From Methylococcales bacterium (GTDB lineage: Bacteria; Pseudomonadota; Gammaproteobacteria; Methylococcales; Methylomonadaceae): a stretch of 33,575 nucleotides of DNA. The DNA is taken from contig QVQE01000114.1 in NCBI GenBank assembly GCA_003584865.1, positions 1-33,575 on the forward strand, written 5' to 3'. Positions 9,514 through 26,211 of the stretch are shown here, piece after piece (within the stretch, counting starts at the first letter, position 1; each line of letters begins with the position of its first letter). A model generated the notes under the pieces. That model was not told where the DNA came from, did no database searches, and saw only the letters and a list, made by a program, of their open reading frames with translations. Made by a program: the position numbers and the translations under genes.

Positions 9514-10733
9514 CCGTGTTTGATGTAGAGAAAATACGCCAGGATTTTCCTATCCTGAAGGAAAAGATTCGCGGTAAGGATCTGGTTTATTTAGATAATG
9601 CAGCGACGTGTCAAAAGCCGCAAGCCGTTATCGATAGTATTGTGCAGGTTTATAGTCATGATTATGCCAATGTGCATCGTGGCGTGCATACCTTAAGTGT
9701 ACGTTCTACCGATAAATTTGAAGCGGCACGCACTAAAGTAAAAGAGTTTATTAATGCAGCGAGTGACAAAGAAATTATCTTTGTGAAAGGCGCTACAGAA
9801 GCGGTTAATTTAGTCGCTCAGACCTATGGTAAGGCGAATATTAAAGCCGGTGATGAGATTGTGATTACCGCAATGGAGCATCATTCCAATATTGTGCCTT
9901 GGCAAATGTTGTGTGAGCAAACAGGGGCCGTGTTAAGAGTGGCGCCGATTAATCAAACGGGTGAGTTAATCTTTGCCGAGTTTGAGCAATTACTGAATGA
10001 TAAGACAAAATTAGTTTCAGTCGTGCACATGTCGAACGCCTTAGGGACGATTAATCCGGTTAAGGCGATTATTGAGACGGCGCATTCAAAAAATATCCCT
10101 GTGTTGTTGGATGGTGCTCAAGCTATTCCGCATATAGCAGTGGATGTACAAGCCTTAGATTGTGATTTTTATGTGTTCTCTGGGCATAAGTTATATGCGC
10201 CTACGGGTACGGGCGTATTGTATGGAAAACAAGCGTTATTAGAAGTTATGCCTCCGTATCAGGGCGGTGGAGATATGATTCGTAAGGTCACCTTTACTGA
10301 GACTGAATACAATACTTTGCCGTACAAATTTGAAGCCGGTACACCTAATATCGCGGATGTGATTGGTTTAGGTGCGGCTATTGATTATATCAATGCGATT
10401 GGAATGCCAGCGATTGCCGCTCATGAAGCCGAGTTATTGGATTATGCGACTACAAAAGCCCGTGCTATTAAAGGTTTAAGAATCATTGGTGAAGCGGAAG
10501 AGAAGGGTGCGATTTTGTCCTTTGTGTTGGATAAAATTCATCCGCACGACATTGGTACCATGCTTGATAGTTTAGGTATTGCTATCAGGGCGGGACATCA
10601 TTGTGCGATGCCGGTGATGGATTTTTATAATGTTCCTGCAACAGCAAGAGCTTCATTTGCACTGTATAATACCCGTCAAGAAATTGATGTATTAATGAAT
10701 GGCATAGAATCTTTGATTGAGGTATTTGGCTAA
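9510..10733 (+). CDS. sufS: cysteine desulfurase SufS
   Basis: SufS is a PLP-dependent group II cysteine desulfurase that takes sulfur from L-cysteine and hands it to a carrier. From the ATG at 9510 it has 407 residues. This start has GGAG five bases upstream and overlaps the sufD stop as ATGA; a GTG at 9504 is in frame but overlaps that GGAG. Visible features are the N-terminal YLDNAATCQKP, the PLP lysine in FSGHKLYAPTGTG (Lys227) and the catalytic cysteine in IRAGHHCAMP (Cys365). The short loop around the catalytic Cys marks group II SufS rather than IscS. The stop codon overlaps the sufU start by one base. Confidence 0.96.
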   Translation: MTVFDVEKIRQDFPILKEKIRGKDLVYLDNAATCQKPQAVIDSIVQVYSHDYANVHRGVHTLSVRSTDKFEAARTKVKEFINAASDKEIIFVKGATEAVNLVAQTYGKANIKAGDEIVITAMEHHSNIVPWQMLCEQTGAVLRVAPINQTGELIFAEFEQLLNDKTKLVSVVHMSNALGTINPVKAIIETAHSKNIPVLLDGAQAIPHIAVDVQALDCDFYVFSGHKLYAPTGTGVLYGKQALLEVMPPYQGGGDMIRKVTFTETEYNTLPYKFEAGTPNIADVIGLGAAIDYINAIGMPAIAAHEAELLDYATTKARAIKGLRIIGEAEEKGAILSFVLDKIHPHDIGTMLDSLGIAIRAGHHCAMPVMDFYNVPATARASFALYNTRQEIDVLMNGIESLIEVFG

Positions 10734-12500: not shown

Positions 12501-12929
12501 TTAAAGGCCAGAAACCCCAATGATAGACCAATTGTTAAAGTCCTGGGCGCCCTCTTCGTTATCACCGTTGTTGTAAGTTATACGGCAAGCATATTTCTTT
12601 TTGTTGGTAGCAGCTTTGTCAGTTGTAACGCTGAATTCAGCGCTAATAAGATATTGATAATTGCCTAGTGTCCATGCGTTGAGAGGTTTTTCAGGAAAAA
12701 TAACCGATGTATCAGCCCCCAGTTCAGCTTTGATGTAATTGTTGCAGTGCATGAACGCTATGTTAGATAACGGTGTAGAGATAGCAACTTGACTAGCTTT
12801 GTCTTTACTATCGACTAAAAAAAGATCGGATGCTACAACCTTATAAGCAAAAGGCATTATAAGTTTGTATTGGCTAAGGAGAAGTATAGCAAGTCCAGCG
12901 ATAAGTATAAAGATTCTGTATTTGGGCAT
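12501..12929 (-). CDS. hypothetical membrane-anchored protein
   Basis: I do not recognise this 142-residue protein. It has one hydrophobic segment at about residues 6-24 (IFILIAGLAILLLSQY). With few following charges, this reads as an uncleaved signal anchor that leaves the remainder in the periplasm. The rest is moderately polar with two cysteines (Cys62 in AFMHCNNY, Cys115 in KKYACRITYNNGD) that could form a disulfide. It is transcribed divergently from pmoC, with 287 bases between the starts. Nothing links it functionally to methane oxidation. Confidence 0.65.
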   Translation of the reverse strand: MPKYRIFILIAGLAILLLSQYKLIMPFAYKVVASDLFLVDSKDKASQVAISTPLSNIAFMHCNNYIKAELGADTSVIFPEKPLNAWTLGNYQYLISAEFSVTTDKAATNKKKYACRITYNNGDNEEGAQDFNNWSIIGVSGL

Positions 12930-13216: not shown

Positions 13217-13969
13217 ATGGCAGCTACAACTGAATCAGTGAAAGCTGATGCTGCGGAAGCACCGCTGTTAAATAAAAGAAATATGTTCTTGGGCGCTGCG
13301 CTCTATGTCATATTTTACGGTTGGGTTCGTTGGTATGAAGGTGTTTACGGATGGTCAGCAGGTTTAGACTCATTTGCACCTGAATTCGAAACATACTGGA
13401 TGAACTTCTTGTATATCGAGTTTGTTCTTGAAACTATCACTGCAGGTATTCTGTGGGGTTACATCTGGAAATCTCGTGATCGTAAAGTGATGTCAATCAC
13501 TCCAAGAGAAGAGTTAAGAAGACACTTTACTCATTGGATCTGGTTGGTAATGTATGCTATCGCAGTATATTACGGTGCTAGCTACTTTACTGAGCAAGAC
13601 GGTACTTGGCATCAAACTATTGTTCGTGATACTGACTTTACACCAAGTCACATCATCGAATTTTACTTGAGCTACCCTATATACATCATCACTGGTGGTG
13701 CTTCTTTCTTATACGCAAGAACAAGATTGCCAAGCTATCAAAATGGTTTGTCTTTGATGTACTTGGTATCAGTAGTTGGTCCATTCATGATCTTACCAAA
13801 CGTTGGTTTGAATGAATGGGGTCACACTTTCTGGTTTATGGAAGAGTTGTTTGTTGCTCCTTTACACTACGGTTTCGTATTCTTCGGATGGGCTACTTTG
13901 GGTGTATTAGGTGTTGTGAACACAGAAGTTGCTGCAATCAGCAAACTTCTGAAAAAAGACTTAGCATAA
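13217..13969 (+). CDS. pmoC: particulate methane monooxygenase subunit C
   Basis: PmoC is an all-helical membrane subunit of the copper enzyme that oxidises methane to methanol. The 250-residue sequence keeps the conserved metal-site ligands Asp128-x3-His132-x12-His145 (EQDGTWHQ and TPSHIIEF), which correspond to Asp156, His160 and His173 of Methylococcus capsulatus Bath. GPFMILPNVGLNEWGHTFWF and APLHYGFVFFGWA are also family signatures. GGAGG lies 5 bases before the ATG. The N terminus is shorter than in Bath by about 28 residues, matching the shift in ligand numbers. It leads the pmoCAB operon and is preceded by a clear promoter. Confidence 0.98.
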   Translation: MAATTESVKADAAEAPLLNKRNMFLGAALYVIFYGWVRWYEGVYGWSAGLDSFAPEFETYWMNFLYIEFVLETITAGILWGYIWKSRDRKVMSITPREELRRHFTHWIWLVMYAIAVYYGASYFTEQDGTWHQTIVRDTDFTPSHIIEFYLSYPIYIITGGASFLYARTRLPSYQNGLSLMYLVSVVGPFMILPNVGLNEWGHTFWFMEELFVAPLHYGFVFFGWATLGVLGVVNTEVAAISKLLKKDLA

Positions 13970-14001
13970 AATAAAGTTCTCGCTGTAAATCTATCCTCCT
14001 G

Positions 14002-14032
14002 GCTGTTTCGTCTAATTTCAAGGCGAAACAGC
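14002..14032 (+). other. hairpin in the pmoC-pmoA intergenic region
   Basis: GCTGTTTCG (14002-14010) is perfectly complementary to CGAAACAGC (14024-14032) with a 13-base loop. There is no T run after it. A stem just downstream of pmoC is suited to mRNA processing, 3'-end protection of pmoC or partial attenuation of pmoAB. Flanking bases 13979-13986 can extend it by pairing with 14033-14040 with one wobble. Confidence 0.6.
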
Positions 14033-14087
14033 ACAGTGAGTGGATAGTGATTAATAAAAAAAATTTAAATCCTTTAGGAGGTAAGCT

Positions 14088-14837
14088 ATGAGCGCATCTC
14101 AATCAGCTGTACGTTCACGCGCAGAAGCAATAAAAGTTTCTCGTACGTTCGACTGGCTAATTTTGTTTACATTGTTCTTCGTTGTTCTTGGTGGTTATCA
14201 CATTCACTATATGTTAACTGGTGGTGACTGGGATTTCTGGACTGACTGGAAAGATCGTCGTCTATGGGTAACCGTAGCTCCAATCGTTTCAATCACTTTC
14301 CCTGCTGCTGTACAAGCTTGCTTATGGTATCGTTACCGTTTGCCATTCGGTGCGGTAGTTTGTGTATTAGGTCTTTTGTTAGGTGAGTGGGTCAACAGAT
14401 ACTTAAATTTCTGGGGTTGGACTTATTTCCCAGTAAACTTCTGCTTTCCTTCAAACCTGATGCCAGGTGCAATCGTATTAGACTCTATCCTGTTGTTATC
14501 AGGTAGTTTAACTGTTACTGCTGTAATCGGTGGTTTAGCTTGGGGCTTATTGTTCTATCCAGGTAACTGGCCAATCATTGCTCCTCTTCATGTACCTGTA
14601 GAATACAACGGCATGATGATGACTTTGGCTGACTTACAAGGTTATCACTATGTAAGAACAGGTACTCCTGAGTATATCAGAATGGTAGAAAAAGGTACTT
14701 TAAGAACATTCGGTAAAGACGTTGCTCCAGTATCAGCGTTCTTCTCTGGTTTCGTTAGTATCATCATTTACTTCTTATGGCATTTCTTCGGAAAATGGTT
14801 TGCACAAACTACTTTCATTTCTAGTGAAGATTTCTAA
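14088..14837 (+). CDS. pmoA: particulate methane monooxygenase subunit A
   Basis: PmoA is the membrane subunit widely used as a methanotroph marker. The 249-residue sequence carries GGDWDFWTDWKDRRLWVTV, GLLLGEWVNRY, NFWGWTYFPVNF, FYPGNWPIIAPLHVPVEYNG and VRTGTPEYIRMVEKGTLRTF. These features place it with gammaproteobacterial type Ia sequences and away from the divergent pmoA2, Crenothrix-type or AmoA forms. GGAGG is 7 bases upstream of the ATG. The gene follows pmoC after 118 bases that contain a hairpin. The segment NFCFPSNLMPGAIVLDSILL contains a Cys where sequences I can recall carry Val; that is a minor variant. Confidence 0.98.
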   Translation: MSASQSAVRSRAEAIKVSRTFDWLILFTLFFVVLGGYHIHYMLTGGDWDFWTDWKDRRLWVTVAPIVSITFPAAVQACLWYRYRLPFGAVVCVLGLLLGEWVNRYLNFWGWTYFPVNFCFPSNLMPGAIVLDSILLLSGSLTVTAVIGGLAWGLLFYPGNWPIIAPLHVPVEYNGMMMTLADLQGYHYVRTGTPEYIRMVEKGTLRTFGKDVAPVSAFFSGFVSIIIYFLWHFFGKWFAQTTFISSEDF

Positions 14838-14898
14838 TTAAAAAGTTCTATAATAAAGAACTGGACAATTAAAATTGCCAGATATACTAATAAAGATT

Positions 14899-14912
14899 CT
14901 CTATTAATAGAG
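14899..14912 (+). other. palindrome overlapping the pmoB ribosome binding site
   Basis: CTCTATTAATAGAG is a perfect 14-base palindrome whose last bases form the beginning of the pmoB Shine-Dalgarno run (GAGGGGGA, 14910-14917), ending 3 bases before the ATG at 14921. If folded, the hairpin would partly cover the ribosome site; another short stem (AGTTC 14844-14848 with GAACT 14858-14862) lies upstream. Confidence 0.45.
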
Positions 14913-14920
14913 GGGGATAT

Positions 14921-16165
14921 ATGAAAATATTAAAAGACAAGGTAGCTAAATTATCCTTTGTCGCACTGCTGATCACAATGACAGCAGCGATGTTTTATGC
15001 ACCAACAGCGTCTGCTCATGGTGAAAAGTCGCAAGCAGCTTTCATGCGTATGCGTACTATTCACTGGTTTGACCTTAACTGGTCAAAAGATGAGGTACCT
15101 GTTAATGACACAATGACATTAACTGGTAAGTTCTATGTATTTAAAGGTTGGCCAGAAACTGTTGATAAACCAGAAGTATCATTCTTAAACGTAGGTATTC
15201 CTGGTCCTGTATTTATTCGTGCAGGATCTTGGATCGGCGGTCAATTAGTTCCACGCTCAGTATCTTTGGAATTAGGCGAAACTTATGAGTTTAAAGTACT
15301 TTTGAAAGCGCGTCGTCCAGGTGACTGGCACGTTCACGCTATGATGAACGTACAAGGTGGTGGTCCAATCATTGGTCCTGGTAAATGGGTAACTGTTACT
15401 GGATCTATGGGTTCATTCGTTAACCCAGTAACTACTTTAACTGGCGAAACAATTGATTTGGAACACTACAACCTAAGCAATACCTATTTCTGGCATGGTC
15501 TTTGGTATGCAATTGGTTTAATCTGGGTCGCTTACTGGGCTCGTAAACCATTGTTCATTCCACGTTCTATCGCTGTAGAATCAGGTAAAGCAAACACTTT
15601 GGTTACTCCATTAGACAAAAAAGTTACATTGGCATTTGCAGTTGGTACTATTGCGATTATTGCGGTTTCTATGGGCGCAACAAACGAAAAGTTCCCAATT
15701 ACAACTCCATTACAAGCTGGTTTGTTACGTGGTATGAAAACAATTGAACTGCCAGTTGCAACTGTTGCAGTTAAAGTTGAAGATGCTACTTATCGTGTAC
15801 CTGGCCGTGCAATGCAAATGACCTTGACTATCACTAACAATGGTGATTCTCCAGTTCGTTTAGGTGAATTTAACACTGCTGGCGTTCGTTTCTTGGATCC
15901 TGCTGTTTCTGAAGACGAATCAGGATATCCTGATGACTTATTGGCTGAAGAAGGTTTGACTGTTAGCGATAACAGCCCAATTGCTCCAGGTCAATCAAGA
16001 ACAGTTCAAGTTACTGCATCTGACGCTGCATGGGAAGTTTACCGTTTAGCTGACTTGATCTACGATCCAGATAGCCGTTTTGCTGGTTTGTTGTTCTTCT
16101 ATGATGCAGCTGGTAATCGTCAAATGATTACTGTTGACGCACCATTAATTCCAACTTTCATCTAA
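14921..16165 (+). CDS. pmoB: particulate methane monooxygenase subunit B
   Basis: PmoB carries the periplasmic cupredoxin domains and a conserved copper site. The 414-residue precursor has a signal peptide ending at ASA32, so His33 becomes the mature N terminus. His137 and His139 (GDWHVHAMM) complete the set. These are the exact Cu-B ligand positions of the M. capsulatus protein. Two cupredoxin domains flank two membrane helices near residues 188-206 and 236-255. The second domain contains VEDATYRVPGRAMQMTLTIT and ends with FFYDAAGNRQM. It is the last gene of the operon; no pmoD follows. A strong terminator lies 45 bases after the stop. Confidence 0.98.
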   Translation: MKILKDKVAKLSFVALLITMTAAMFYAPTASAHGEKSQAAFMRMRTIHWFDLNWSKDEVPVNDTMTLTGKFYVFKGWPETVDKPEVSFLNVGIPGPVFIRAGSWIGGQLVPRSVSLELGETYEFKVLLKARRPGDWHVHAMMNVQGGGPIIGPGKWVTVTGSMGSFVNPVTTLTGETIDLEHYNLSNTYFWHGLWYAIGLIWVAYWARKPLFIPRSIAVESGKANTLVTPLDKKVTLAFAVGTIAIIAVSMGATNEKFPITTPLQAGLLRGMKTIELPVATVAVKVEDATYRVPGRAMQMTLTITNNGDSPVRLGEFNTAGVRFLDPAVSEDESGYPDDLLAEEGLTVSDNSPIAPGQSRTVQVTASDAAWEVYRLADLIYDPDSRFAGLLFFYDAAGNRQMITVDAPLIPTFI

Positions 16166-16210: not shown

Positions 16211-16244
16211 AACCCCGCTATCAGTTTTGGTAGCGGGGTTTTTT
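16211..16244 (+). terminator. strong intrinsic terminator of pmoCAB
   Basis: AACCCCGCTA (16211-16220) pairs perfectly with TAGCGGGGTT (16231-16240) across a 10-base loop and runs straight into TTTT then ATT. The GC-rich 10-bp stem and T tract make this the most convincing terminator in the window. Confidence 0.92.
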
Positions 16245-16567: not shown

Positions 16568-18904
16568 TCAAAAATTGATAGTGATGGTTCCTCGTATCAT
16601 TCTTGGCTCAACTGGGTGTTTCATAAGACCAGTCTGTGGTGTCGAGCCTGCGGGATAGGCATATTGATAAGCGTAGGCAATATCGTTAGACGTCGAATCA
16701 AAAATATTGAATAGATCTAGCTCAAATTTGTATTTTTTCTGTTTGTACCCTGCACCTAAGTTAACGATGCTTGTATTGCCGGCCCAGTATGTGCCAGATG
16801 GATCTAGAGGCATGTCGCCAAAATGACGTAAGCGCAGGGTGCTGAACAAACCATTGGGTGCGACTGCTGTTGCGCCGATACTGATAACTCTGCCTGCTGA
16901 GTTTGGTACATAAGTATTGGTTTCACCCGTTGGAATTGCCGTGTAGCGTGACGAAGTCAGAGCAAAGTCGGCATCTAGTGTTAGCCAGTCAGTTGGTTTG
17001 TAATAGTTACTCCATTCAATGCCATAACGATTAGACATGCCTCTTACATTGGTGGTGCCATCATCACCAGAAAATACTAATTCCTGACTGCTTTGTAGCC
17101 ACCACAAGGCTAGTGTACTATTTAGTTTAGGGATGAAGTTGCTGCGTATCCCAAATTCAGCACCTCGTGACCAAGCCATTAGCGTTACTGGCGTGATCGC
17201 AGAGCCGTCACCGGCAATAGTGGTACCGTCCGCAGGATTGAGATGTAGCATGGTGCCTCGAGCATCGTTAGAGTGATAGCCTTCACCGACATTAATGAAA
17301 TATTCGGTGTCGTACCAAGGGCCGACAATTAAACTTAGCTTGGGGCTAAGCATTGCCTTGGAGCGATTGCCTGAATTAGCAGCGTTGATGCTGGCGGCAG
17401 TAATCAGGTTGATATTGGTAAAGCTATTAGCGGTTTGTGTCACATCGTTATTGATAAAATCACCTCTTAGACCTGCAATGGTGCGTAATTTTTTAAACCA
17501 ATAAGTTTGGTTCTTGAAATAAATGCCAGCCGAAGTTTCGGCTACATTATTTTTACTAATGGTGCTGAGATATTGTCGGTTAATAGTGTTATCCAGTCCT
17601 AGACCCATAACCTGATCATTGCGAAGCTGTAAGCCCACAGTATTATCCATCTCAAAACCGAACAGCTTATTGTAGCGAGTATGTTCGATATTGCCGCCCG
17701 TTTGTATTCTATGTTCAAACTGGTGAATCTGATCGCCTTGGGGGCCGTTCAAATAGCCGGTAAAGTTTGAGAATAAGTTTACGTCATAGTAGAGTGCGTA
17801 GATATTAGCGTCATTTTTCCAGTTATCGCCTTTATTCCAAAGATTTGTGGAAAAGCTGTAACGGTTGGTAGTGCCTCCGTCAGTAGGACTCATAGTGCCG
17901 TACAATCCTAGGGAGCCGTTGTCAACTGATGCTTGTGGAATCTGATTGGTTGCAGTCCAACTGTTACTATAACCTTTGGTGTTAACCGCTAATCCCCAGT
18001 TACCTTTATCTAAACTATAGCGAACCATACCATTAAATTTTCTGGAACCTTCCGGTTGTTGCCAAACGCCATTATAGGCATTGAATTCACCGGCATAGAG
18101 CAAGTTGCCATCGCCTACTTTGTTGGAATTGGCAAGTAGCCCTCGGTAATAACCAAATTCGCCACCGGTAAACTTGGCGATACCTTGTGGCAAGGTATCC
18201 ATTGAATACATTTTGGCAAAACCAGCCGATGAAAAATCGCCTACTTCTGCATAATAAGGACCCTTGCCGTATTCGATATTTTTCACTAGTTCGGGAATGA
18301 CACTATTAATGTCCATATAGCCTTGACCGTGTGCATGAGTAGGCATGTTCATGGGTATGCCATCAACGTAAGTGGTAAAGTCGGTACCGTGGTCAAGATT
18401 ATAACCACGTAGAAAATACTGATTGGCTTTGCCGGAGCCGCTGTGCTGCGTGGCTACAGCACCTGGCACTATTTCCACTAGTTCACCGTTACGGGATAGT
18501 GGGCGGTATTCAAGCTGTTCTTGGCTGACTTCGCCTTGAGAGGCTGACCCAGTAATACCGATAAGGTTTTTTGCCCGTCCGGTAGGGGTCTTGGAAGTGA
18601 TGATTATTTCTTTCAGTTCAACAGTATCTGTTTTATTTGTTTTGGCCTTGGTTTTTGCTTTAGAGGTGACTTTTTTTTGAGTTTGTGTAGGAGTTGTAGC
18701 AATATCTTTAGCCGCTGTCTGAGTGCTTTCCTGTGTTGTGGTACTCTCTTGGGTCTCATCTGTAGCGAGTGTTGTGGTCGAATAGCTGAGCATAAATGCA
18801 CAGGCAAACAAGGTCAGTCCTGCGTTCTGTAGTTGTAATGTTTGTGGTTTTGGAAGCAAATTAGGTAGAGTCATGGTCTTTGGTATTTTCATCGTTTTTC
18901 TCAT
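16568..18904 (-). CDS. TonB-dependent outer membrane receptor with Met/His-rich plug loop
   Basis: The precursor is 778 residues. A hydrophobic stretch near residues 28-42 fits a signal peptide that starts late (Met5 at 18892 is another possible start). It is followed by a 45-residue Thr/Lys-rich linker (49-93), a TonB-box-like ELKEIIITS (97-105), the plug (about 110-235) and a long barrel ending in Phe. The plug contains FLRGYNLDHGTDFTTYVDGI and then MNMPTHAHGQGYMD, placing Met185, Met187, His190, His192 and Met197 close together, a side-chain set suited to copper. The substrate is otherwise unknown. It lies 12 bases after a HupE-type transporter gene and is probably co-transcribed with it. 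Confidence 0.92.
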   Translation of the reverse strand: MRKTMKIPKTMTLPNLLPKPQTLQLQNAGLTLFACAFMLSYSTTTLATDETQESTTTQESTQTAAKDIATTPTQTQKKVTSKAKTKAKTNKTDTVELKEIIITSKTPTGRAKNLIGITGSASQGEVSQEQLEYRPLSRNGELVEIVPGAVATQHSGSGKANQYFLRGYNLDHGTDFTTYVDGIPMNMPTHAHGQGYMDINSVIPELVKNIEYGKGPYYAEVGDFSSAGFAKMYSMDTLPQGIAKFTGGEFGYYRGLLANSNKVGDGNLLYAGEFNAYNGVWQQPEGSRKFNGMVRYSLDKGNWGLAVNTKGYSNSWTATNQIPQASVDNGSLGLYGTMSPTDGGTTNRYSFSTNLWNKGDNWKNDANIYALYYDVNLFSNFTGYLNGPQGDQIHQFEHRIQTGGNIEHTRYNKLFGFEMDNTVGLQLRNDQVMGLGLDNTINRQYLSTISKNNVAETSAGIYFKNQTYWFKKLRTIAGLRGDFINNDVTQTANSFTNINLITAASINAANSGNRSKAMLSPKLSLIVGPWYDTEYFINVGEGYHSNDARGTMLHLNPADGTTIAGDGSAITPVTLMAWSRGAEFGIRSNFIPKLNSTLALWWLQSSQELVFSGDDGTTNVRGMSNRYGIEWSNYYKPTDWLTLDADFALTSSRYTAIPTGETNTYVPNSAGRVISIGATAVAPNGLFSTLRLRHFGDMPLDPSGTYWAGNTSIVNLGAGYKQKKYKFELDLFNIFDSTSNDIAYAYQYAYPAGSTPQTGLMKHPVEPRMIRGTITINF

Positions 18905-18916
18905 GATAAATTGTGT

Positions 18917-20257
18917 TCAGGCGTTGTGTATCGCAAGGTAATTGGGGGAACTGGAAATAATTGGCGTTACTAGGCAATCGAAAGGTATGCCGGTGTTGCT
19001 TAAGGGGTGTATTAATAGCCGATGGCTAGAAAATAAAGTAAGGCAGAGCGTTAGAGGTCGTTCTGCGAAACTTATGAAACTGTGAGGGCTGCGAAAAGCA
19101 AATCCGTCGGAATGGGGTGATGAAATAACAGTGACTCTACAGTGTACGGGTGGCGCAGTGGTGCCTAAGCCATTAGTCAAAAAACGAATAGCCAGTGTGT
19201 GTCTTATAAGGAATAAAACTAATTCTGGGGTGGTTGCTGTAACCTGATTGCCATCATTAGCAGGAATGTCGGCAAAGTGAACAATGTGGGCAGTAGGGCA
19301 AAAACGAGGCGTGTCCTTAATGGCGATAGCAATCGGTGGTGATGTTGCACCTACACCATTAGTTAAAAAATGTTTACCGGGTTTATGATAACTGGGCGAA
19401 TCGTTATTAGTAACAAGAGTGCTAGTGCGAGCATTGGTCGCATTGTATTTGGCGATCCGCAGAAAGTTGCGGTGATTGTCCGATATAGGTGGATGATCAC
19501 CCGTTGTACGGTACTTATCTACCTCACTATCGCTTGCGATTCCTTGTACACTGTATAACAAGAGCCTATGCGCTTCGTTATCAGCGGTGGAGTGTGTAGA
19601 TAGGGTTAATTCGTAAGCTTTGTCCGATTGTGTGGGTACAATGCTGTTAGCGCTTGAGTCATCGGCGGTTGACTGGGCATAAGTAACATGGCAGAGAATA
19701 AGTGTCAGTAACATCACTAATAAACGGAGAACTAAAATACCTGCGCCATGCAATAATAAAGTAGCTATCATAAAGCCTAAGGTGTAGGAAATAAGGCTAG
19801 CTGATGTGGATATTTCCTGACCATGGGCAAAGCCATGGAAAAAGGCGAAAAAAGCTACGATGATCAGATTGGTTTGACTGCTGAAGCGGATTTTGCGGAC
19901 AATAAATACGCTGAATACCAGACAGGAAAGAAGAATGATGGGTTCTGCGATAGGAATTAATACACCGGCTGCACCAGCCAAACCACCGATACTCATCACG
20001 CCTACAAAGGTAAGAGGCAACAGCCAAATCGCCGTCCCCCTCATTTGTGCCGCCCAAATACCTACGGCAAGCATGGTAAGCAAGTGATCGCCGCCGTGTA
20101 ATGGATGAATAAAGCCACGACTCCAACTGCTAATATCAACGGCTGTGCCTAGGTTATTGAGTACAATGACACCTAATGTCGACAATAAGACCAACGCAAG
20201 CGTCAGCCACCGCCGAGTGTGTTGGGAAAGACTTGTTGAGGACATAGCTTTATTCAT
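18917..20257 (-). CDS. HupE/UreJ-family metal permease with an unusual 250-residue C-terminal extension
   Basis: Residues 15-195 form a HupE/UreJ domain of about six membrane helices. Metal-binding motifs are HPLHGGDH (residues 51-58) and FFHGFAHGQE (140-149). HupE relatives move nickel or cobalt into the cell; here the metal is unproven. Normal members end near residue 200. This protein continues for another 250 residues (bases 19672-18917) rich in Thr, Ser, His and Pro, with two imperfect repeats: FLTNGVGATSPP (19334-19370) and FLTNGLGTTAPP (19148-19183). I recognise no domain in the tail. The open frame is too long to be chance, so it is translated or only recently acquired. The TonB receptor begins 12 bases downstream. 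Confidence 0.8.
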   Translation of the reverse strand: MNKAMSSTSLSQHTRRWLTLALVLLSTLGVIVLNNLGTAVDISSWSRGFIHPLHGGDHLLTMLAVGIWAAQMRGTAIWLLPLTFVGVMSIGGLAGAAGVLIPIAEPIILLSCLVFSVFIVRKIRFSSQTNLIIVAFFAFFHGFAHGQEISTSASLISYTLGFMIATLLLHGAGILVLRLLVMLLTLILCHVTYAQSTADDSSANSIVPTQSDKAYELTLSTHSTADNEAHRLLLYSVQGIASDSEVDKYRTTGDHPPISDNHRNFLRIAKYNATNARTSTLVTNNDSPSYHKPGKHFLTNGVGATSPPIAIAIKDTPRFCPTAHIVHFADIPANDGNQVTATTPELVLFLIRHTLAIRFLTNGLGTTAPPVHCRVTVISSPHSDGFAFRSPHSFISFAERPLTLCLTLFSSHRLLIHPLSNTGIPFDCLVTPIISSSPNYLAIHNA

Positions 20258-20445
20258 TTAAGTTCGTTGTTTATGCAAAGGCGAATAAAAGGATTTGAAT
20301 TCTGAACTTTTTTTTAGCGATAGGCAAGTAGATAATGGCTTATCACCCTTTAAAGTTGGATGCTATGTGAAAATTAAGTGTTTACTCTGCGCGTGTTGGT
20401 CACACTTTACACGCTGTAGGTTAGGTCATTAATCCATTCACAGTG

Positions 20446-20480
20446 ATGGCATGTCTTATAATCTCTATAAGACATGCCAT
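20446..20480. repeat. perfect 15-bp inverted repeat between the two HupE-type genes
   Basis: ATGGCATGTCTTATA (20446-20460) and TATAAGACATGCCAT (20466-20480) are exact reverse complements around a 5-base loop. It starts 20 bases beyond the stop of the downstream-reading HupE/UreJ_2 gene. No T tract follows on the minus strand, so it is either a non-classical terminator or mRNA-stabilising stem, or a dispersed palindromic element. Confidence 0.7.
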
Positions 20481-20499
20481 AAAGATAGGGTTAAAACGA

Positions 20500-21606
20500 C
20501 TAACTAAGCAGCGTTCTTTCTATGAGCCAATAAGCGCCCGCTAAGGCAATTAAGATAGAACAAACAGAGGTTAATTTAGCTTCTATCTTTACTTGTTTAT
20601 GTAGCCACCAAATAATAGGTAACACTAATACCGTTACTGCAATTTGACCGAGTTCTACGCCTAAATTGAAAGAAAATAGAGGGACAAGAATACCCGTCTC
20701 ATAAGAGGATATACCCATTTCACGTAGTACAGCAGCAAAGCCGAATCCATGGACTAACCCAAAAAAGAAGGTTAGCCACTGCCGTCCTTTAGGCTTGCCA
20801 TCTCTTAGGATATTTTCCACCGCCACGTAGACAATCGTTGCTGCGATTAATGGCTCGACAATATTACCCGGAATATCAATGATATTAAGTCCGGCTAAGG
20901 CTAAAGTAATTGAATGTGCAATTGTAAAATAAGTAATTATCTTGAAGGCGGGCCAGAAACTACGAGTCACTATTAACAGGGACAATAAAAACAACAAATG
21001 ATCATAGCCTGTCAGAATATGTTCAATGCCTAACAGTAAAAAGTCATTAAACGTAGTTGATTTAGCTTCAGAAGCAGTTGAGTTACTTTTATTTAAAGAA
21101 GTAACCGTTAAATTCAGATCAATAACGTTATCTGTCTGAGACAGCATTTTTTCACTTAGACTATGTCCTGATTCATTCTTTATGGTCACAAATTGCTTGT
21201 GATTAGCGGGTAATTTACTTAGGAAGTCCGCTTGAAATCTAAGCGTCTGACCTACTGATTGAGGGTAATGGAATTCAATGAAGGCATTGTTTTTATCATC
21301 AAAAGAGACACTGCCTAAACTATCCGGTGACACTTTTTTGCCATCAATCGTCGTTTGCACGCCATTTAATGCCCATTTAGCAATTTCAGGTTTTACATTC
21401 TCTTGCTCTATAGGTGTCACCTCAGCATCTAAATCACTATCCATTGGCACAAAAGCTTCTATGTCTTGCAATGAAAAGGTGATTTTTGCATCAACCCCTT
21501 GCGTCTTAATCGCGATATCAGTCGAACTTAATCCAGGGTCATGAGCTAAACCAAGATGACTGAAAGCAATAAGGAAAATAAACGCGATTGTTTTGCGACT
21601 AAACAT
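20500..21606 (-). CDS. HupE/UreJ_2-family membrane protein with periplasmic N-terminal domain
   Basis: The 368-residue precursor begins with a signal peptide ending at GLA21, so the mature chain would start with His22 (HDPGLSS). Residues 22-185 form a beta-rich periplasmic domain. Residues 187-365 form the HupE/UreJ_2 membrane domain (PF13795), with about seven helices and the motifs GIEHILTGYDHLLFL (His196, Asp202, His203), TIAHSITLALAGL (His231), GLVHGFGFAAVL (His286) and FNLGVELGQ (Glu318). These intramembrane His, Asp and Glu residues suggest metal passage. It overlaps the preceding lipoprotein stop by one base, in line with CopC, and so belongs to a CopC-lipoprotein-HupE unit. The metal could be Cu, Ni or Co. 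Confidence 0.9.
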   Translation of the reverse strand: MFSRKTIAFIFLIAFSHLGLAHDPGLSSTDIAIKTQGVDAKITFSLQDIEAFVPMDSDLDAEVTPIEQENVKPEIAKWALNGVQTTIDGKKVSPDSLGSVSFDDKNNAFIEFHYPQSVGQTLRFQADFLSKLPANHKQFVTIKNESGHSLSEKMLSQTDNVIDLNLTVTSLNKSNSTASEAKSTTFNDFLLLGIEHILTGYDHLLFLLSLLIVTRSFWPAFKIITYFTIAHSITLALAGLNIIDIPGNIVEPLIAATIVYVAVENILRDGKPKGRQWLTFFFGLVHGFGFAAVLREMGISSYETGILVPLFSFNLGVELGQIAVTVLVLPIIWWLHKQVKIEAKLTSVCSILIALAGAYWLIERTLLS

Positions 21607-22262
21607 TAAACCTTTTCACCTTTGGCTGTTTTCGAATGACGTCTTTTTCTGTACCATACGACGCCGCCGATGAGTAGGGCTAGTGTTAAAGTTGCGCCTG
21701 CTCCTATCAGGAGTAGGGTCTTCTTAGGTAATGCGTCTGGATCCCCGCCCACATGAAAAGGTATTCTTAACTTGTCTTCATCAGAAACGGCAGCATCTCC
21801 ACCGACTAACAGATACATGGCGTAATAACCATTGTTCTCAATATCGGCTTGGGCTTCAACGACGCCTTTGCTGTATTCTTTAGCGGCAACTTCAGTAATG
21901 GTTTTAATCTCTTTAAAGTTATCGGCTTTTGTATCATCAGAGCCAACCATTTCCAGTTCAACGACTCGAATACCAATAGGCGTTTTACGAATATCGCGAT
22001 CAATTAAATCAGCCGCAAGAAATACTTTTCCTGAGCCTGGAATTTCTTGGCAATAGGGTCTTAATAGAGCGGCTCTATCACTCTCATCTTTTTTAGGTGC
22101 TGATGATTTTAAATAAACACTAAAATGGACAGCATAAAAATCATTAGTAATTAAGCAGCCAACGCTATTTAAGTCGGGTATTTGCGGTTGTGTACCCAGT
22201 TGATTTTTATCACAACCCGATATCAATAGAGCAAGAAATAGTAAACTAAATAATCGAATCAT
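21606..22262 (-). CDS. lipoprotein with C-terminal membrane anchor, unknown function
   Basis: The 218-residue protein starts with a type II signal peptide whose lipobox is LISGC (Cys17). A predicted membrane helix near residues 183-203 (LLLIGAGATLTLALLIGGVVW) is followed by a basic tail YRKRRHSK, so the C terminus should be cytoplasmic. The periplasmic middle part holds two further cysteines (GCLITNDFYAVHFSVYL and LRPYCQEIP). I do not recognise the fold. A chain held by a lipid at one end and a helix at the other is unusual. It is four bases after copC and overlaps the HupE/UreJ_2 gene, so it probably serves the same metal pathway, perhaps bridging CopC and the permease. Confidence 0.75.
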   Translation of the reverse strand: MIRLFSLLFLALLISGCDKNQLGTQPQIPDLNSVGCLITNDFYAVHFSVYLKSSAPKKDESDRAALLRPYCQEIPGSGKVFLAADLIDRDIRKTPIGIRVVELEMVGSDDTKADNFKEIKTITEVAAKEYSKGVVEAQADIENNGYYAMYLLVGGDAAVSDEDKLRIPFHVGGDPDALPKKTLLLIGAGATLTLALLIGGVVWYRKRRHSKTAKGEKV

Positions 22263-22266
22263 AAAC

Positions 22267-22665
22267 TTAGGGAGCTTTGATGGTAAATTGAAATTTGCCT
22301 GTAACGATATGCGTGTCGATTGAAACGACTCGGTATCTTACAGTGTAGGTGTCCGGTGACAATTTAGGTATTGAAGCAAAGAGATGTGAAGGATCAAAGG
22401 TCTCTTGTTGAGCATCTTTATTGTCCACCCGTTTTCCTTTACTGTCGATTACAGCGAGTGCAATGTATTCTGAGCCCACTTTATCATTAAACCAAACGTC
22501 AACCTGCTTGGGTGATTCCGGTACAGTCGCATTGGCTTCGGGTGTTGAGCGAACCATAATGGCATGAGCATACAGTGGCAGAGGTGCTGCAAGCGTAAAG
22601 GGTATAATAAATCCTGAAAACAGTAACTTATATTTATTATGTTTTTTAAATAGGCTTCGTATCAT
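22267..22665 (-). CDS. copC: CopC-family periplasmic copper-binding protein
   Basis: The 132-residue precursor has a signal peptide ending at LYA33. His34 becomes the mature N terminus, as in Cu(II)-binding CopC proteins, where the amino-terminal His forms a histidine brace. The other family ligands are visible as Asp117 and His119 in SIDTHIVTGKFQF, matching the family's DGH-x-V-x-G pattern. RSTPEANATVPESPKQVDVWF is the usual start of the CopC fold. No CopD-type membrane partner is fused or adjacent; instead a lipoprotein and a HupE/UreJ_2 gene follow within five bases. That suggests CopC here delivers copper to a different permease. The Met-rich Cu(I) site of the original Pseudomonas CopC is absent. 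Confidence 0.93.
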   Translation of the reverse strand: MIRSLFKKHNKYKLLFSGFIIPFTLAAPLPLYAHAIMVRSTPEANATVPESPKQVDVWFNDKVGSEYIALAVIDSKGKRVDNKDAQQETFDPSHLFASIPKLSPDTYTVRYRVVSIDTHIVTGKFQFTIKAP

Positions 22666-22685
22666 AGTTTTTTAAGTCAAAAATA

Positions 22686-22760
22686 AACAAAATTGTTGCG
22701 TAATTCAGTATATCTTATCTGTAATAGAATACACAGAAAAAGCTAAGTCTCAATTTTGTT
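22686..22760 (-). terminator. candidate terminator, long-loop stem after the BNR gene
   Basis: On the minus strand AACAAAATTG (22760-22751) and CAATTTTGTT (22695-22686) form a 10-bp stem with a 55-base loop, followed by TATTTTT. The position between the BNR gene and copC fits a terminator or a processed spacer. The AT-rich stem and large loop keep confidence low. Confidence 0.35.
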
Positions 22761-22809
22761 ATCTTGATTGGCTTATCTCCTTGTCGGAATAGAAGATAGA
22801 AAATAGCGT

Positions 22810-23991
22810 TTAATTTAATGTTTGGATGATTAATTGCGTCACTTGTTTGTCGTTTTTTTCTGTCCACATAACGATAAAGTCATCACCCATTGGTACAATG
22901 CGCGGGAAACCAGCTAATGTGGACGCCGATGATAAGCGAGTTTTTGATGACCAAGACAAGCCACCGTCTTGCGACTTAGCGAAATATACACCAATATTAG
23001 TTGCTGTTCTTTCATCCCAGACAGTGACAACCCGTTTGTTATTGACTGAAATATCACTATGACTGGCTAGTTTGCTTAACAAATTAGGTGTTGACCAATG
23101 GTGGCCACCATCATTAGATGCTAGTGAGTACAAACCATATATATCTGCTTGACCCGTCCAGACGGTACTGTATAGCGCGTTATTTTCATCGGTTGCTAGC
23201 CCACCGCCAATATGAGGGCATCCATCAAACTCCCATTTGAAATCGCCTATGGTTATTTTTTCTGACCAGGAGTCTCCTCTATCGACAGATTGTTTAATCG
23301 ACATATCACGCGGCTTCATGTCTCTGTATAAAACGCTAAGTGTTCCGTTAGGTGATAAAGTCAACGTATTCCAGCAGCACGAGCAGGTTGAGTTATCCAG
23401 AGCCTTGCTGAGTTCCCAATGTTCGCCACCGTCAATAGAGCGTGCATAGATGAGGCTTTGATAACCATTCTCTTCGGGGTCGGCGAGCCAAACGGCATGA
23501 AAATACCCTGAGGCATCCGCTATAATGTCCGCATGCGATTGATCGCCCTTATCGTCACCCGCAGGATTCGTTCCTTTTTTCCAAGTCTTGCCGCCATCAT
23601 GAGAATAATAACTGATTAGAGGCCCCATATTGGGTAACTCACCTTTAACTTGCCATAGTGCAACTAAATTTTCACCGGACACGGCTAGTTGTGTATCGTT
23701 GCCTCTTGCGGCAATTGAATTTAGTTTAGAGTCCAGGTCGTTTATGTCATGCCACGAAAACGCACCGTTTTCTAAATGACCATATTTTATGGTTGTGTGA
23801 TCATGCTGAGTGTCTTGGCCCGCAACCAAGAGGTGTACTGCTTTTTTATCAGCCACAACATCCAGGCTTTTAATATCATTTAAGGCAACGTTAACGATTG
23901 CTGGTGTCGTTGAGAAATGACTGTCTTTCAGTTTAACCCATATAAAAATAATTATTACCGCAACGAATGCCAACTTATAGACTCGTTTCAT
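22810..23991 (-). CDS. BNR/Asp-box beta-propeller protein with CxCC motif, sialidase-like
   Basis: The 393-residue protein has an N-terminal hydrophobic segment at 7-19 (LAFVAVIIIFIWV), which exports it or tethers it to the periplasmic face. Five Asp boxes (S-x-D-x-G-x-x-W) are visible: residues 130-137, 185-192, 235-242, 292-299 and 340-347, marking a six-bladed propeller. Annotation pipelines would call it an exo-alpha-sialidase, but the catalytic Arg triad and Tyr of sialidases are not evident to me. Instead it has Cys203, Cys205 and Cys206 (STCSCCWN) and Cys258-Pro-His260 (DGCPHIGGG), which look like a thiolate/His metal site. It is upstream of copC on the same strand with a 144-base gap, so a role in periplasmic copper binding is inferred. 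Confidence 0.85.
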   Translation of the reverse strand: MKRVYKLAFVAVIIIFIWVKLKDSHFSTTPAIVNVALNDIKSLDVVADKKAVHLLVAGQDTQHDHTTIKYGHLENGAFSWHDINDLDSKLNSIAARGNDTQLAVSGENLVALWQVKGELPNMGPLISYYSHDGGKTWKKGTNPAGDDKGDQSHADIIADASGYFHAVWLADPEENGYQSLIYARSIDGGEHWELSKALDNSTCSCCWNTLTLSPNGTLSVLYRDMKPRDMSIKQSVDRGDSWSEKITIGDFKWEFDGCPHIGGGLATDENNALYSTVWTGQADIYGLYSLASNDGGHHWSTPNLLSKLASHSDISVNNKRVVTVWDERTATNIGVYFAKSQDGGLSWSSKTRLSSASTLAGFPRIVPMGDDFIVMWTEKNDKQVTQLIIQTLN

Positions 23992-24239
23992 AGCAGGTTA
24001 TCCAGAGTTTTAGTAAGTAATGTAGTTGAGCGATATTGTAGTAGAGTTTGCTTTCAAAAAGAGCGGTAGGCTACCTTTATTTCATAGAATACTTGATGAG
24101 TCATTTTATAGCCATGCTTTTTCATGGGTGACGATTTAACATTTTTTGATGTTGTTTCACATGATTAAGTAAGTATGCTATTTTAGGCAGCGTGGAAAGA
24201 ACCAGAAATTATGCAATTTTTATTAATGCGGTTATATTT

Positions 24240-25016
24240 ATGAATACTTACTTACAAAAAAAGATTTATTTAATACTGTGCGCTTTTTTGTATTGTCAAT
24301 CATCACACGCTTTTGAATACAAAACGTTTTCCGGTATTCTTTTTGTTAAGATTAATGCCGGTTGCTTCCTGATGGGTAAGGATACTGATCTTAAAGAAAG
24401 CAGTCCTGTAGAGCAACCTCAGCATAAAGTGTGTATATCCCATCCGTATTACCTGAGTGAAACGGAAATCACCCAAAATCAGTGGGAAAGCATTATGGGA
24501 TCCAATCCCAGCAAATCCAAGTCTCTCTATAAGCCAGTTGAAAGGGTAAGCTGGAACGACGCCCAAGAGTTTATTCAGCGTCTTAATGCTAAAGAGGGCG
24601 GGCGCTCATTTCGGTTGCCTAGTGAAGCAGAGTGGGAGTACGCGGCTCGGGCAGGTAGCAAGGATCTCTATTCTTTTGGAAGTAAATCCAAGGATTTGAG
24701 TGATTATGGCTGGTATGGTGATGAAGGTTATGGTGGGGCCAGTCATCAGGTTGCACTTAAAAAGCCTAATTCATGGGGTCTATATGATATGCATGGAAAT
24801 GTGTGGGAGTGGGTACAGGATTGGTATGGGTCAGATTACTATGCGATGAGTCCTGAAAATGATCCTCGTGGGCCAGATTCTGGGCAATATAAGTCTTATA
24901 GAGGCGGTAGTTGGGTTGGTAAAGCGGTTAATTTACGCTCCTCTTTGCGCTACAGTGGCCTTCCTAGTATGCGTACGAGTGATATTGGTATTAGGCTTTT
25001 ACATGAGATGGATTAG
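24240..25016 (+). CDS. secreted SUMF1/formylglycine-generating-enzyme-fold protein
   Basis: From the ATG at 24240 it has 258 residues with a signal peptide ending at SSHA24; a GTG at 24192 extends the frame by 16 residues and has an AGG upstream, but would bury the signal peptide, so I prefer the ATG. The SUMF1-like fold is clear: GCFLMGKD, HPYYLSETEITQNQWESIMG, PVERVSWNDAQEFIQRLNA, FRLPSEAEWEYAARAG, WGLYDMHGNVWEWVQDWYG and YRGGSW. The pair of cysteines that binds copper in true formylglycine-generating enzymes, expected shortly after the RGGSW stretch, is missing (VGKAVNLRSSLRYSG), so it is unlikely to make formylglycine. The ligand is unknown. Confidence 0.88.
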   Translation: MNTYLQKKIYLILCAFLYCQSSHAFEYKTFSGILFVKINAGCFLMGKDTDLKESSPVEQPQHKVCISHPYYLSETEITQNQWESIMGSNPSKSKSLYKPVERVSWNDAQEFIQRLNAKEGGRSFRLPSEAEWEYAARAGSKDLYSFGSKSKDLSDYGWYGDEGYGGASHQVALKKPNSWGLYDMHGNVWEWVQDWYGSDYYAMSPENDPRGPDSGQYKSYRGGSWVGKAVNLRSSLRYSGLPSMRTSDIGIRLLHEMD

Positions 25017-25173: not shown

Positions 25174-25569
25174 ATGAAGTTTTTGAATAAAGCAGTCGTA
25201 TCAGCAGTCATGGCAGCTTCAATGCTTGCTATGTCGTCTTCTGTGTTTTCTGCTGAAGAGCACAAAGATAAAAATCTTGCAGTTCAAGAAGCAGCAAAAA
25301 ATACCGAAGCAAGTATGTTAGAAGCTAAAGAAGCTCTTCTTAAAGGTGGTGATGGAGAGAAAACTCTAAACGCATTAAACGATGCACGTCAGTTCGTAAA
25401 AGAATTCCGTTATGAACAAACTGAGCGTTTACGTCAAAAATTAAATACCAGTTTAAAAACTGCTCGTGAAGAAGCAATAGCTAATAATAACGAAAAAGCC
25501 TTGGCAGAAGTTAACAATGGCTTAGCTATTTATGCGGAAATGAAGAAAATTTACGACGCAGCTCATTAA
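25174..25569 (+). CDS. small secreted helical protein (paralogue 1)
   Basis: The 131-residue precursor has a classic signal peptide (MKFLNKAVVSAVMAASMLAM..VFSA, cut near residue 27). The mature part is almost entirely helical, Lys/Glu/Ala-rich and free of Cys, Trp and Pro. It carries stretches such as QKLNTSLKTAREEAIANNNE and YAEMKKIYDAAH. I do not recognise a named family. It resembles the next gene in length, signal, helix layout and the pattern R-x-K-x2-LK-x-AR, so the two look like diverged duplicates. AGGATTA lies upstream of the ATG as a partial ribosome site. A periplasmic chaperone-like or binding role is possible but unsupported. Confidence 0.72.
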   Translation: MKFLNKAVVSAVMAASMLAMSSSVFSAEEHKDKNLAVQEAAKNTEASMLEAKEALLKGGDGEKTLNALNDARQFVKEFRYEQTERLRQKLNTSLKTAREEAIANNNEKALAEVNNGLAIYAEMKKIYDAAH

Positions 25570-25824: not shown

Positions 25825-26211
25825 ATGCTTAATTTGAAAAAAATTGCATTTGCCATTGTTATCGCTACATCTATGGGCACTATTTCTTCACCTGTATTTG
25901 CTGAAGCAGATGCCGGTCGTATCGTTTACTCGCCAACTCAAGCAATTGATTTAGTTGCTGGTAAAGTGGGTACTGCGTTAGAGGCTCTAAAGAGCGGCGC
26001 GAAAGCCGAGCAAGTTGATGATTTGATAAAAGATGCTTTATCATCTAGCAAAGAAATCAACGCGAGTGACAAAGTATTTGCAGCAAGAGATAAAATTCAT
26101 AATAAACTAAAATCTGCTCGTAGTAGTCTTAAAAGTGGAGACAAAGCCGCTGCAGAAGCTGATTTGACTGCTGCACAAAAAGCTTTTACAGCGTTAAAAG
26201 ACCTACTTTAA
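25825..26211 (+). CDS. small secreted helical protein (paralogue 2)
   Basis: The 128-residue precursor has a signal peptide ending at VFA26. The mature protein is predicted to be three or four amphipathic helices, rich in Ala, Lys and Ser, without Cys, Trp or Met after the signal. AAGGAGTT lies directly upstream of the ATG, an excellent ribosome site, so expression may be high. It shares overall plan with the preceding gene, notably KLKSARSSLKSGDKAAAEAD aligned with the Lys/Ala/Arg helix there. I know no function. A structured inverted repeat with a T run follows the stop. Confidence 0.72.
   Translation: MLNLKKIAFAIVIATSMGTISSPVFAEADAGRIVYSPTQAIDLVAGKVGTALEALKSGAKAEQVDDLIKDALSSSKEINASDKVFAARDKIHNKLKSARSSLKSGDKAAAEADLTAAQKAFTALKDLL

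Follow-up and report, generated by a model that had tools for sequence, protein, structure and literature searches.

How gammaproteobacterial methanotrophs take up copper and hand it on to the particulate methane monooxygenase (pMMO), which loses activity on isolation, is an open question. Several described systems come close to the locus considered in this work. In Methylococcus capsulatus Bath, the cluster CRC3 (MCA2168-2179) responds to copper limitation (PMC4831470), and the pmoD gene MCA2170b, which adjoins copC, is upregulated without copper (PMC6688271). PmoD proteins of the Cx9HxnC class make up 22.2% of PmoDs, are often encoded near copC and bind copper without forming a CuA site (Fisher et al. 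2018, PMC6189053). The anglerase Ang-1 (Franco Cairo et al. 2025, structure 9GCE) represents HupE/UreJ_2 proteins with an N-terminal histidine domain, for which copper binding was reported in 2025; RbAng-1a has dissociation constants of 74 nM for Cu2+ and 220 nM for Ni2+, copper being preferred (PMC12537917). Finally, the CruR system of Bordetella assembles parts of a kind also met here to control a TonB receptor by copper (PMC9426467), and the CrtA copper receptor family is treated in PMC12914433 and PMC13038864. The stretch of DNA analysed here, referred to as the window, comprises 33,575 nucleotides of contig QVQE01000114.1 (label C15) from a Methylococcales bacterium (assembly GCA_003584865.1, 2.5 Mb, 75% complete, label G000; G and L numbers are labels for the genomes and loci sampled in the analysis). 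Next to the pMMO operon pmoCAB it carries six genes, encoding a BNR beta-propeller protein, CopC, a PmoD homologue, two HupE/UreJ-type proteins (HupE2 and HupE1) and a TonB-dependent receptor (TBDR), which probably constitute an accessory module that acquires or scavenges copper and delivers it to supply pMMO.

This reading is based on the motif of PmoD, the histidine-brace triad of CopC, the N-terminal His22 and fold of HupE2, the synteny of the core genes, their match to CRC3, the proximity of pmoCAB and the copper genes found as neighbours elsewhere. An initial annotation, made from the letters alone, had placed six same-strand genes beyond the pmoCAB terminator, and the list of open reading frames (ORFs) bears this out: pmoCAB (13217-16165, + strand; ORFs, Pfam, NCBIfam) is convergent with the cluster on the - strand, and a terminator-like stem-loop of 13 pairs (16211-16240, +; stem search) lies between them. 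The Pfam scores of the cluster products are 42.6 bits for BNR_2, 78.4 for CopC (cut-off 23.3), 158.5 for HupE_UreJ_2, 142.9 for HupE_UreJ and 47.6 for the receptor Plug domain. The junctions are as first described, with a gap of 4 bp between CopC and PmoD, an overlap of 1 base between PmoD and HupE2, and a gap of 12 bp between HupE1 and the receptor. Two transcription units are also favoured by the comparative evidence, the first of them with a different composition from that first suggested: BNR/copC/pmoD/hupE2 and hupE1/TBDR.

Judged by sequence and gene order, BNR, CopC and PmoD form a block that is conserved in both Methylococcales and Nitrosomonas. An order-level sample of 151 genomes has BNR homologues in 93 (E<=0.001). 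Among the BNR matches listed, 66 are long and at least 35% identical, and 60 of the 65 besides the window's own were fetched as unnamed loci; CopC stands beside BNR in 53/60, PmoD in 53/60, HupE2 in 23/60 and an ABC transporter set in 19/60. Among the seven unnamed loci without an adjacent CopC are those of G048 and G147, two genomes that encode the CopC-PmoD pair at a separate site (L203, L202). For named loci, 80 of the 166 BNR relatives found were kept, with CopC beside BNR in 60/80, PmoD in 59/80 and HupE2 in 35/80; four of these 80 stretches end too soon to tell. The locus of the ammonia oxidiser Nitrosomonas oligotropha encodes a HupE-receptor fusion followed by a TlpA-like protein, BNR, CopC and PmoD. 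In L032 and L103, several kb with further FGE-type ORFs lie between BNR and CopC-PmoD.

The initial annotation could not name the combined system, yet the core block matches the copper-responding cluster CRC3 (PMC4831470). In Methylococcus capsulatus Texas (L178), BNR, CopC and PmoD occur in the same order as in the window and are followed by a transmembrane protein, an ABC ATPase, an ABC permease and a ZnuA-like protein, these families having been assigned on the homologous L070. We infer that L178 corresponds to CRC3 of Bath, a correspondence that is not taken from a Bath annotation. Whereas L178 continues with the transmembrane protein and the ZnuA-like ABC set, the window has HupE2, HupE1 and the TonB receptor instead; by eye, none of the window ORFs beside the block resembles an ABC/ZnuA-like set; the core is homologous to that of CRC3, but the locus is not a CRC3 locus. 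The locus offers a concrete set of genes for the probable supply of copper and connects them with a cluster for which a response to copper limitation has been reported.

Proximity of the block to pmo genes recurs without being general, which qualifies the link with pmoCAB made in the initial annotation. Pmo genes lie in the fetched flanks of 6/60 unnamed loci (two of them pxm-like, in A-B-C order) and of 10/80 named loci, where fewer than one pmo operon per set would be expected by chance (about 1.06 Mb each; estimated roughly by hand, on the basis of 1-3 PmoB matches per genome); since the sets share species and their members are related, the excess is no formal test. Four arrangements are seen, with pmoCAB upstream of the block and in the same orientation (L102, L107, L108), downstream and convergent on PmoD/HupE2 (L112, L115, L117, L118, L124, L202), downstream and in the same orientation (L162, L164) or, as in the window, convergent on the receptor. 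In L068 and L072, pxmABC-like genes in A-B-C order are found about 5 kb from a BNR-CopC-PmoD-ABC block.

The protein first described as a two-ended lipoprotein (21606-22262, -) is, by its sequence, a PmoD, a known type of copper protein whose location beside copC had already been published. It matches the solved PmoD 6cpd_A (phmmer E 2.1e-7, residues 69-152) and shares with it the two invariant cysteines and a C-terminal transmembrane helix; it differs in its lipobox-like N-terminal signal (helix and signal both by eye) and in its motif. Because this motif is Cx9HxnC, with Cys36 conserved in 113/113, His46 in 101/113 and Cys71 in 113/113 aligned relatives, the protein is not a CuA-type PmoD, and the CuA-forming motif Cx7MxHxnC is absent from it in the alignment. 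Copper binding was reported for another PmoD of the same class (PMC6189053). In G130, PmoD was matched in two pieces. CopC (22267-22665, -; Pfam, alignment) matches 5icu_A with E 1.9e-13 in an alignment that begins at His34, the likely mature N-terminus. The triad that the initial annotation had taken as pointing to copper, His34, Asp117 and His119, is conserved in 114/114 aligned CopC sequences, that is, the window CopC and those found beside BNR. With 66.9 bits against a cut-off of 95, it falls below the NCBIfam equivalog NF033814 and is therefore a member of the CopC family but not of that equivalog.

HupE2 (20500-21606, -; Pfam, alignment, fold match) combines an N-terminal Ig-like periplasmic domain that starts at His22 with a PF13795 permease, which by Pfam and the predicted model is the anglerase architecture. 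His22 directly follows the predicted signal peptide (A21-H22, by eye) and is invariant in 32/32 sequences. The predicted periplasmic domain resembles the copper-bound Ang-1 domain 9gce (E 1.9e-4, probability 1.0, TMt 0.54). HupE2 and Ang-1 thus have in common a signal peptide, an N-terminal histidine, an Ig-like domain and PF13795, whereas HupE2 has no detectable phmmer similarity to 9gce, and CopC, PmoD and BNR are not among the neighbours named for Ang-1 in the available part of PMC12537917. The suggestion that copper transport by HupE would be new is qualified by the same report, after which copper in connection with HupE is no longer entirely new.

The BNR protein (22810-23991, -; Pfam, alignment, model) has an N-terminal signal or anchor, and its Cys203, Cys205 and Cys206 (the C-S-C-C of the CxCC motif, residues 203-206, codons 23374-23385, -) and Cys258-Pro-His260 (the CPH motif, codons 23212-23220, -) are invariant in 46 aligned sequences. 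Its predicted model (pLDDT 89.8) has a sialidase-type propeller fold, matched by sialidases at about 13% identity. A copper propeller like that of N2O reductase or thiocyanate dehydrogenase was considered but finds no support: the best 50 of 711 PDB fold matches (E<=0.001) belong to sialidases, lectins, lyases and proteins of that sort. In Nitrosomonas oligotropha and Methyloglobulus, BNR comes after a TlpA/ResA-like gene; in other Gammaproteobacteria the order is receptor-BNR-TlpA (L195, L197, L198 and L200 with the receptor confirmed by profile, L196 by position), and in L199 BNR and TlpA share one ORF (9030-10733) after a TonB-receptor-like ORF. These neighbours and the fusion suggest that the BNR cysteines may be under redox control by a TlpA/ResA-like thioredoxin. 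In genomes that lack PmoB, BNR relatives adjoin a multicopper oxidase/CopB fusion gene (L194) or a TlpA-like gene (L195-L198, L200), and in L200 a copper P-type ATPase is encoded a few genes away; a role as a pMMO-specific protein is ruled out by such genomes. BNR is thus a general and probably copper-related module, which oxidisers of methane and of ammonia combine with CopC and PmoD. A gene annotated "BNR repeat" in Thioalkalivibrio, possibly of this family, is reported to rise together with the gene after it, annotated "Iron outer membrane complex", with copCD and ABC genes and with the copper enzyme thiocyanate dehydrogenase (PMC5744179).

Taken as a pathway, chelated copper would cross the outer membrane through the TonB receptor, for which copper is the putative substrate, and the exported BNR propeller may then capture it at the Cys-His site formed by CxCC and CPH, which in lineages with a TlpA/ResA-like thioredoxin would be kept reduced by that protein. 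CopC, with its histidine brace, and the membrane-anchored PmoD could hold periplasmic copper and pass it, presumably in this order, towards pMMO. The anglerase-type HupE2, together with HupE1 if copper is indeed its substrate, would move the metal over the inner membrane in a direction that is assumed here to serve acquisition, and in Methylococcus-type genomes the ABC set with its ZnuA-like binding protein stands after the core in the place of HupE2.

HupE1 and the TonB receptor form one unit. The HupE1 ORF (18917-20257, -; ORF list, Pfam) had been read as a permease, which holds for its HupE_UreJ domain of about 192 residues (19682-20257, -; HPLHGGDH and FHGFAHGQE stretches; Pfam, alignment); a tail of about 250 residues had been overlooked, so that the product is no plain permease. 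The receptor (16568-18904, -; Pfam Plug) has in its plug His154, His172 and His192, and about 97% of 70 relatives share these residues. With the HupE1 domain as query, 51 close copies were obtained from 42/151 genomes (at least 169 bits, the next match listed having 121), and the other HupEs among the matches listed are at most 47% identical to it. None of the close copies is an ordinary protein of about 200 residues: 37/51 lie in open frames of 316-543 residues and 14/51 in frames of 860-945 residues. These 14 are HupE in frame with a TonB receptor; open-frame length alone is no proof of fusion, and therefore only ORFs that match both the HupE and the receptor queries were counted. Together with six from named loci they give 20 distinct fused proteins, among them those of N. 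oligotropha Nm45 and Nm75, that of Methyloglobulus morosus KoM1 and several encoded on contigs of 4.4-5.0 Mb (G008, G092, G094, G125, G144). At the junction, which resembles a signal-peptidase site, the last HupE helix ends with Ala at -1 and Ala, Val or Ile at -3 before the receptor begins, in 17/17 printed junctions of the 20, and an internal Met could start the receptor separately in 4/17. HupE nickel permeases share with HupE1 the PF04955 domain and its motifs, whereas all 51 close HupE1s are fused to a TonB receptor or long-tailed (at least 316 residues). An ordinary HupE match in G351 (C16:73265-73720) lies within a 984-residue open frame that may be another fusion or no more than a long ORF, and G017, G021 and G045 likewise have ordinary HupEs in long frames.

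In unfused loci, a receptor directly follows in 25/27 (21 of the window's receptor family and four only of a second family; L227 and L237 are the exceptions), HupE2 comes after the receptor in 10/27, and a second CopC-PmoD pair lies nearby in 8/27 (weak matches, 38-62 bits). By script, a receptor is just downstream in 33/41 unfused HupE1s of a wider set. In a class-level sample of 369 genomes the close subfamily is confined to two Methylococcales genomes and G323; the latter shares its family label with the PmoB-bearing G178, and its HupE1 open frame has 256 residues. Among the titles listed from the literature searched, which covers few subscription papers and thus leaves absence unproven, none deals with a HupE-TonB receptor fusion or with the BNR-CopC-PmoD-HupE set. 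Such a fusion is unusual and, if the coupling is as proposed, would let a single gene provide import across two membranes. L112 (1577-3187) has a tandem HupE-tail-HupE in a single ORF, followed by HupE2 and a receptor. In L224, L225, L238, L242, L246 and L247 a TonB receptor of a different family and an ABC ATPase come after a tailed HupE1, either at once or with the usual receptor in between; together with neighbours of about 470 residues in L224, L238 and L246, these may form a second cargo system coupled to the HupE1 subfamily.

Several findings weigh against a copper module serving pMMO. HupE1 keeps the motifs HX5DH and FHGX[AV]HGXE (alignment), which we take to be the classical nickel-permease motifs, and urease and hydrogenase are commoner where its subfamily is present. 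As a fold match for the HupE2 domain, the zinc protein ZrgA (E 3.7e-5) outranks 9gce, and the TM-scores are modest; no metal-dependent copper propeller is among the best 50 of the 711 BNR fold matches. The module is dispensable, a strong BNR being present in only 3/9 sampled genomes of the same genus (G000, G100, G127) and PmoB in 9/9. In the class-level sample, 26/369 genomes match the BNR alignment (1e-20), with PmoB in 1 of 18 checked, and among the five with a strong BNR, G408, G511 and G152 are without PmoB. A PmoB-family match is found in 4/11 genomes behind named loci, two of these being only 31-residue fragments, and three Verrucomicrobia metagenome-assembled genomes have neither PmoB nor a CopC or PmoD beside BNR. 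The other eight of these 11 are Nitrosomonas genomes, which hold all four matches; the two fragments lie at contig starts, and the absences there are likely to stem from gaps in the assemblies.

The initial annotation aimed the whole locus at copper; the comparative evidence favours this as well, and for the HupE1-receptor unit we judge copper somewhat more likely than nickel. A locus for two metals, in which BNR-CopC-PmoD-HupE2 handles copper and HupE1 and its receptor are a nickel or cobalt importer that is merely adjacent, is unlikely but the strongest of the alternatives, and it draws on the nickel-type motifs of HupE1. The initial annotation held that association with nickel enzymes would speak against copper, and here the outcome is mixed. 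Within the family, 42 genomes with the HupE1 subfamily were compared with 35 without it (77 in all, shared ancestry not being corrected). Urease is present in 33/42 versus 16/35 (p=0.004), and NiFe hydrogenase in 26/42 versus 13/35, counted by PF00374 matches better than 1e-30; matches of about 60 bits we take to be complex I subunits. The association with the BNR block is stronger (28/42 versus 6/35, p=2e-5), and 6/42 HupE1 genomes, 97-99% complete, have neither urease nor NiFe hydrogenase, five of the six having the BNR block. A separate importer would agree with the fused HupE-receptor genes of genomes without a strong BNR (G008, G092, G094, G125, G078) and with the different receptor family and ABC ATPase that follow some tailed HupE1s (L238, L242, L246, L247). 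It agrees less well with receptors of the same family that lie beside, or less than 1 kb from, BNR-CopC-PmoD in L076, L081 and L087, with no HupE1 match in the fetched stretch, or with the second copC-pmoD pair near hupE1 in 8/27 unfused loci.

A dedicated apparatus for the assembly and metallation of pMMO, essential to the enzyme rather than accessory to it, is less probable still. It would explain the repeated proximity of pmoCAB, and M. trichosporium is reported to depend critically on a PmoD, though one of a different class, when its growth on methane relies on copper (PMC6189053). An essential factor is hard to reconcile with the 6/9 genomes of the same genus that have PmoB without a strong BNR, and with relatives of the window PmoD in only 83/151 genomes of the order against PmoB in 129/151. 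Copper resistance or detoxification, suggested by the classical place of CopC in resistance operons and by BNR relatives beside a multicopper oxidase/CopB gene and near a copper P-type ATPase gene, is very improbable given that TonB receptors import, that the corresponding M. capsulatus cluster is reported to answer copper limitation with pmoD up without copper, that CopC misses the NCBIfam equivalog cut-off, and that no copper-efflux gene was recognised by eye among the window ORFs, which were scanned in part.

The tail of HupE1 raises the question of how permease and receptor are coupled where they are not fused. In unfused HupE1s the same helix follows the domain, mostly with a cleavage-like site, and then the tail begins; in the window, this last hydrophobic helix (19673-19750, -; alignment with fused homologues) carries the signal-peptidase-like site HVTYA/Q. 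A tail motif, [IV]NHTPGxxLLSNGVGLTSPP, is found in 36/41 unfused proteins (28 strict, 8 looser), is absent from L113, L115, L124, L160 and L227, and by the strict pattern occurs in 0/20 fused proteins; L160 resembles a broken fusion. In the window, a motif search places copy 1, HKPGKHFLTNGVGATSPP, at 19334-19387 (-) and copy 2, FLTNGLGTTAPP, at 19148-19183 (-). The mean coding-strand skew (C-G)/(C+G) rises from -0.06 in the HupE domain to +0.15 in the tail, the tail having the higher value in 41/41; for the 35 loci with a placeable motif the means are +0.06 upstream and +0.26 downstream of the motif, and in the fused genes (n=17) the mean over the first 750 nt of the receptor part is 0.00. The C-rich, G-poor region after the motif in the window (18920-19333, -; skew +0.33 by computation) is a candidate Rho-dependent attenuator. 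Rut-like 78-mers with a C/G ratio of at least 3 occur after the motif in 13/35 loci, before it in 1/35, in the HupE domain in 0/35 and in the receptor body in 1/32. At fourfold sites, the pooled skew is 0.33 after the motif, 0.03 before it and 0.07 in the HupE domain, and is higher after the motif than in the HupE domain in 30/35 loci.

Along the gene, dN/dS increases from 0.03-0.20 in HupE through 0.12-0.45 (defined in 13/15 pairs) to 0.34-0.98 after the motif (15 pairs). After the motif, dS is lower than in the HupE domain in 10/15 pairs (median ratio 0.67; receptor body 1.42) and higher in five, strongly so in L246/L247, and the pair L223/L234 looks recombined; synonymous constraint in the tail is suggestive only. 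A stop-free coding frame is true by construction, since the first stop defines the end of any ORF, and therefore only its contrast with frames 2 and 3, which contain 169 and 174 stops in 12,543 nt after the motif, and its end near the receptor gene are used here. The tail thus looks like a leader that acts as RNA, in which a nascent-chain motif ending in Pro-Pro would be followed by a Rho-loading region covered by ribosomes and then by the receptor gene; alternatively, it may be a disordered periplasmic peptide that is cleaved off. Two other explanations were rejected. Against a decayed receptor N-terminus, the aligned tail does not resemble the receptor, and the window receptor has a signal-peptide-like start of its own. 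A dispersed DNA repeat is contradicted by the exact coding pattern, which occurs twice in the 75% complete genome, both times in the HupE1 gene, with any match at all in 2/11 genomes of the same genus.

It is tempting, if doubtful, to view HupE1 and the receptor as a single machine across both membranes. In some lineages it would be made as a polyprotein in which the last HupE helix serves as the cleavable signal peptide of the receptor; elsewhere, including the window, the arrest motif PGxxLLSNGVGLTSPP and the C-rich Rho-loading region of the tail would let translation of the permease gate transcription of the receptor according to metal supply. A close parallel is the CruR-BfrG/CrtA operon of Bordetella pertussis, which likewise has a conserved motif ending in PP and a bubble of C over G before a TonB receptor gene. 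Unlike CruR, the upstream gene in the window encodes a membrane permease, the motif is NGVGxTSPP and not RAPP, the frame runs through the C-rich region, and the logic proposed here, in which arrest exposes that region, would be the opposite; the CruR leader is unrelated, and its type of domain, DUF2946 with CXXC and RAPP, gave no Pfam match in the HupE1 ORF. Attenuation, and with it the single machine, is weakened because the fourfold-site preference for C over G is greater in the window receptor gene (0.54) than in the tail; mutL has 0.27, and the local skew maxima of the receptor gene and mutL (0.34 and 0.35) are close to the 0.37 of HupE1. If true, the tail would be a testable form of metal-controlled attenuation. 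As for other regulatory elements, a riboswitch (B12, NiCo) before HupE/receptor was considered and dropped, with no Rfam match above gathering in the window.

Further genes flank the locus. Divergent from BNR lies a gene for a putative accessory protein with an FGE-sulfatase fold (24192-25016, +; Pfam, neighbour comparison), followed by two for small exported helical proteins (25174-25569 and 25825-26211, +), the first of which is weakly SMBP-like at 14.4 bits, below the cut-off. All three recur beside BNR in Methylobacter- and Crenothrix-like loci, and in several loci with an unfused HupE1 similar helical proteins also adjoin the second copC-pmoD pair. The window contains no tRNA genes. On the other side of the operon, a 142-residue protein is encoded divergently from pmoC (12501-12929, -); its homologues hold the equivalent position next to pmoC in loci of Methylobacter and Methylomonas (L033, L036, L058, L060, L162, L164) and lie near hupE1-TBDR in L048, L231, L232 and L244. 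At the start of the window (64-4339, +), judged by eye, a GGDEF/EAL-looking membrane protein is followed by another TonB-receptor-like ORF of 706 residues.

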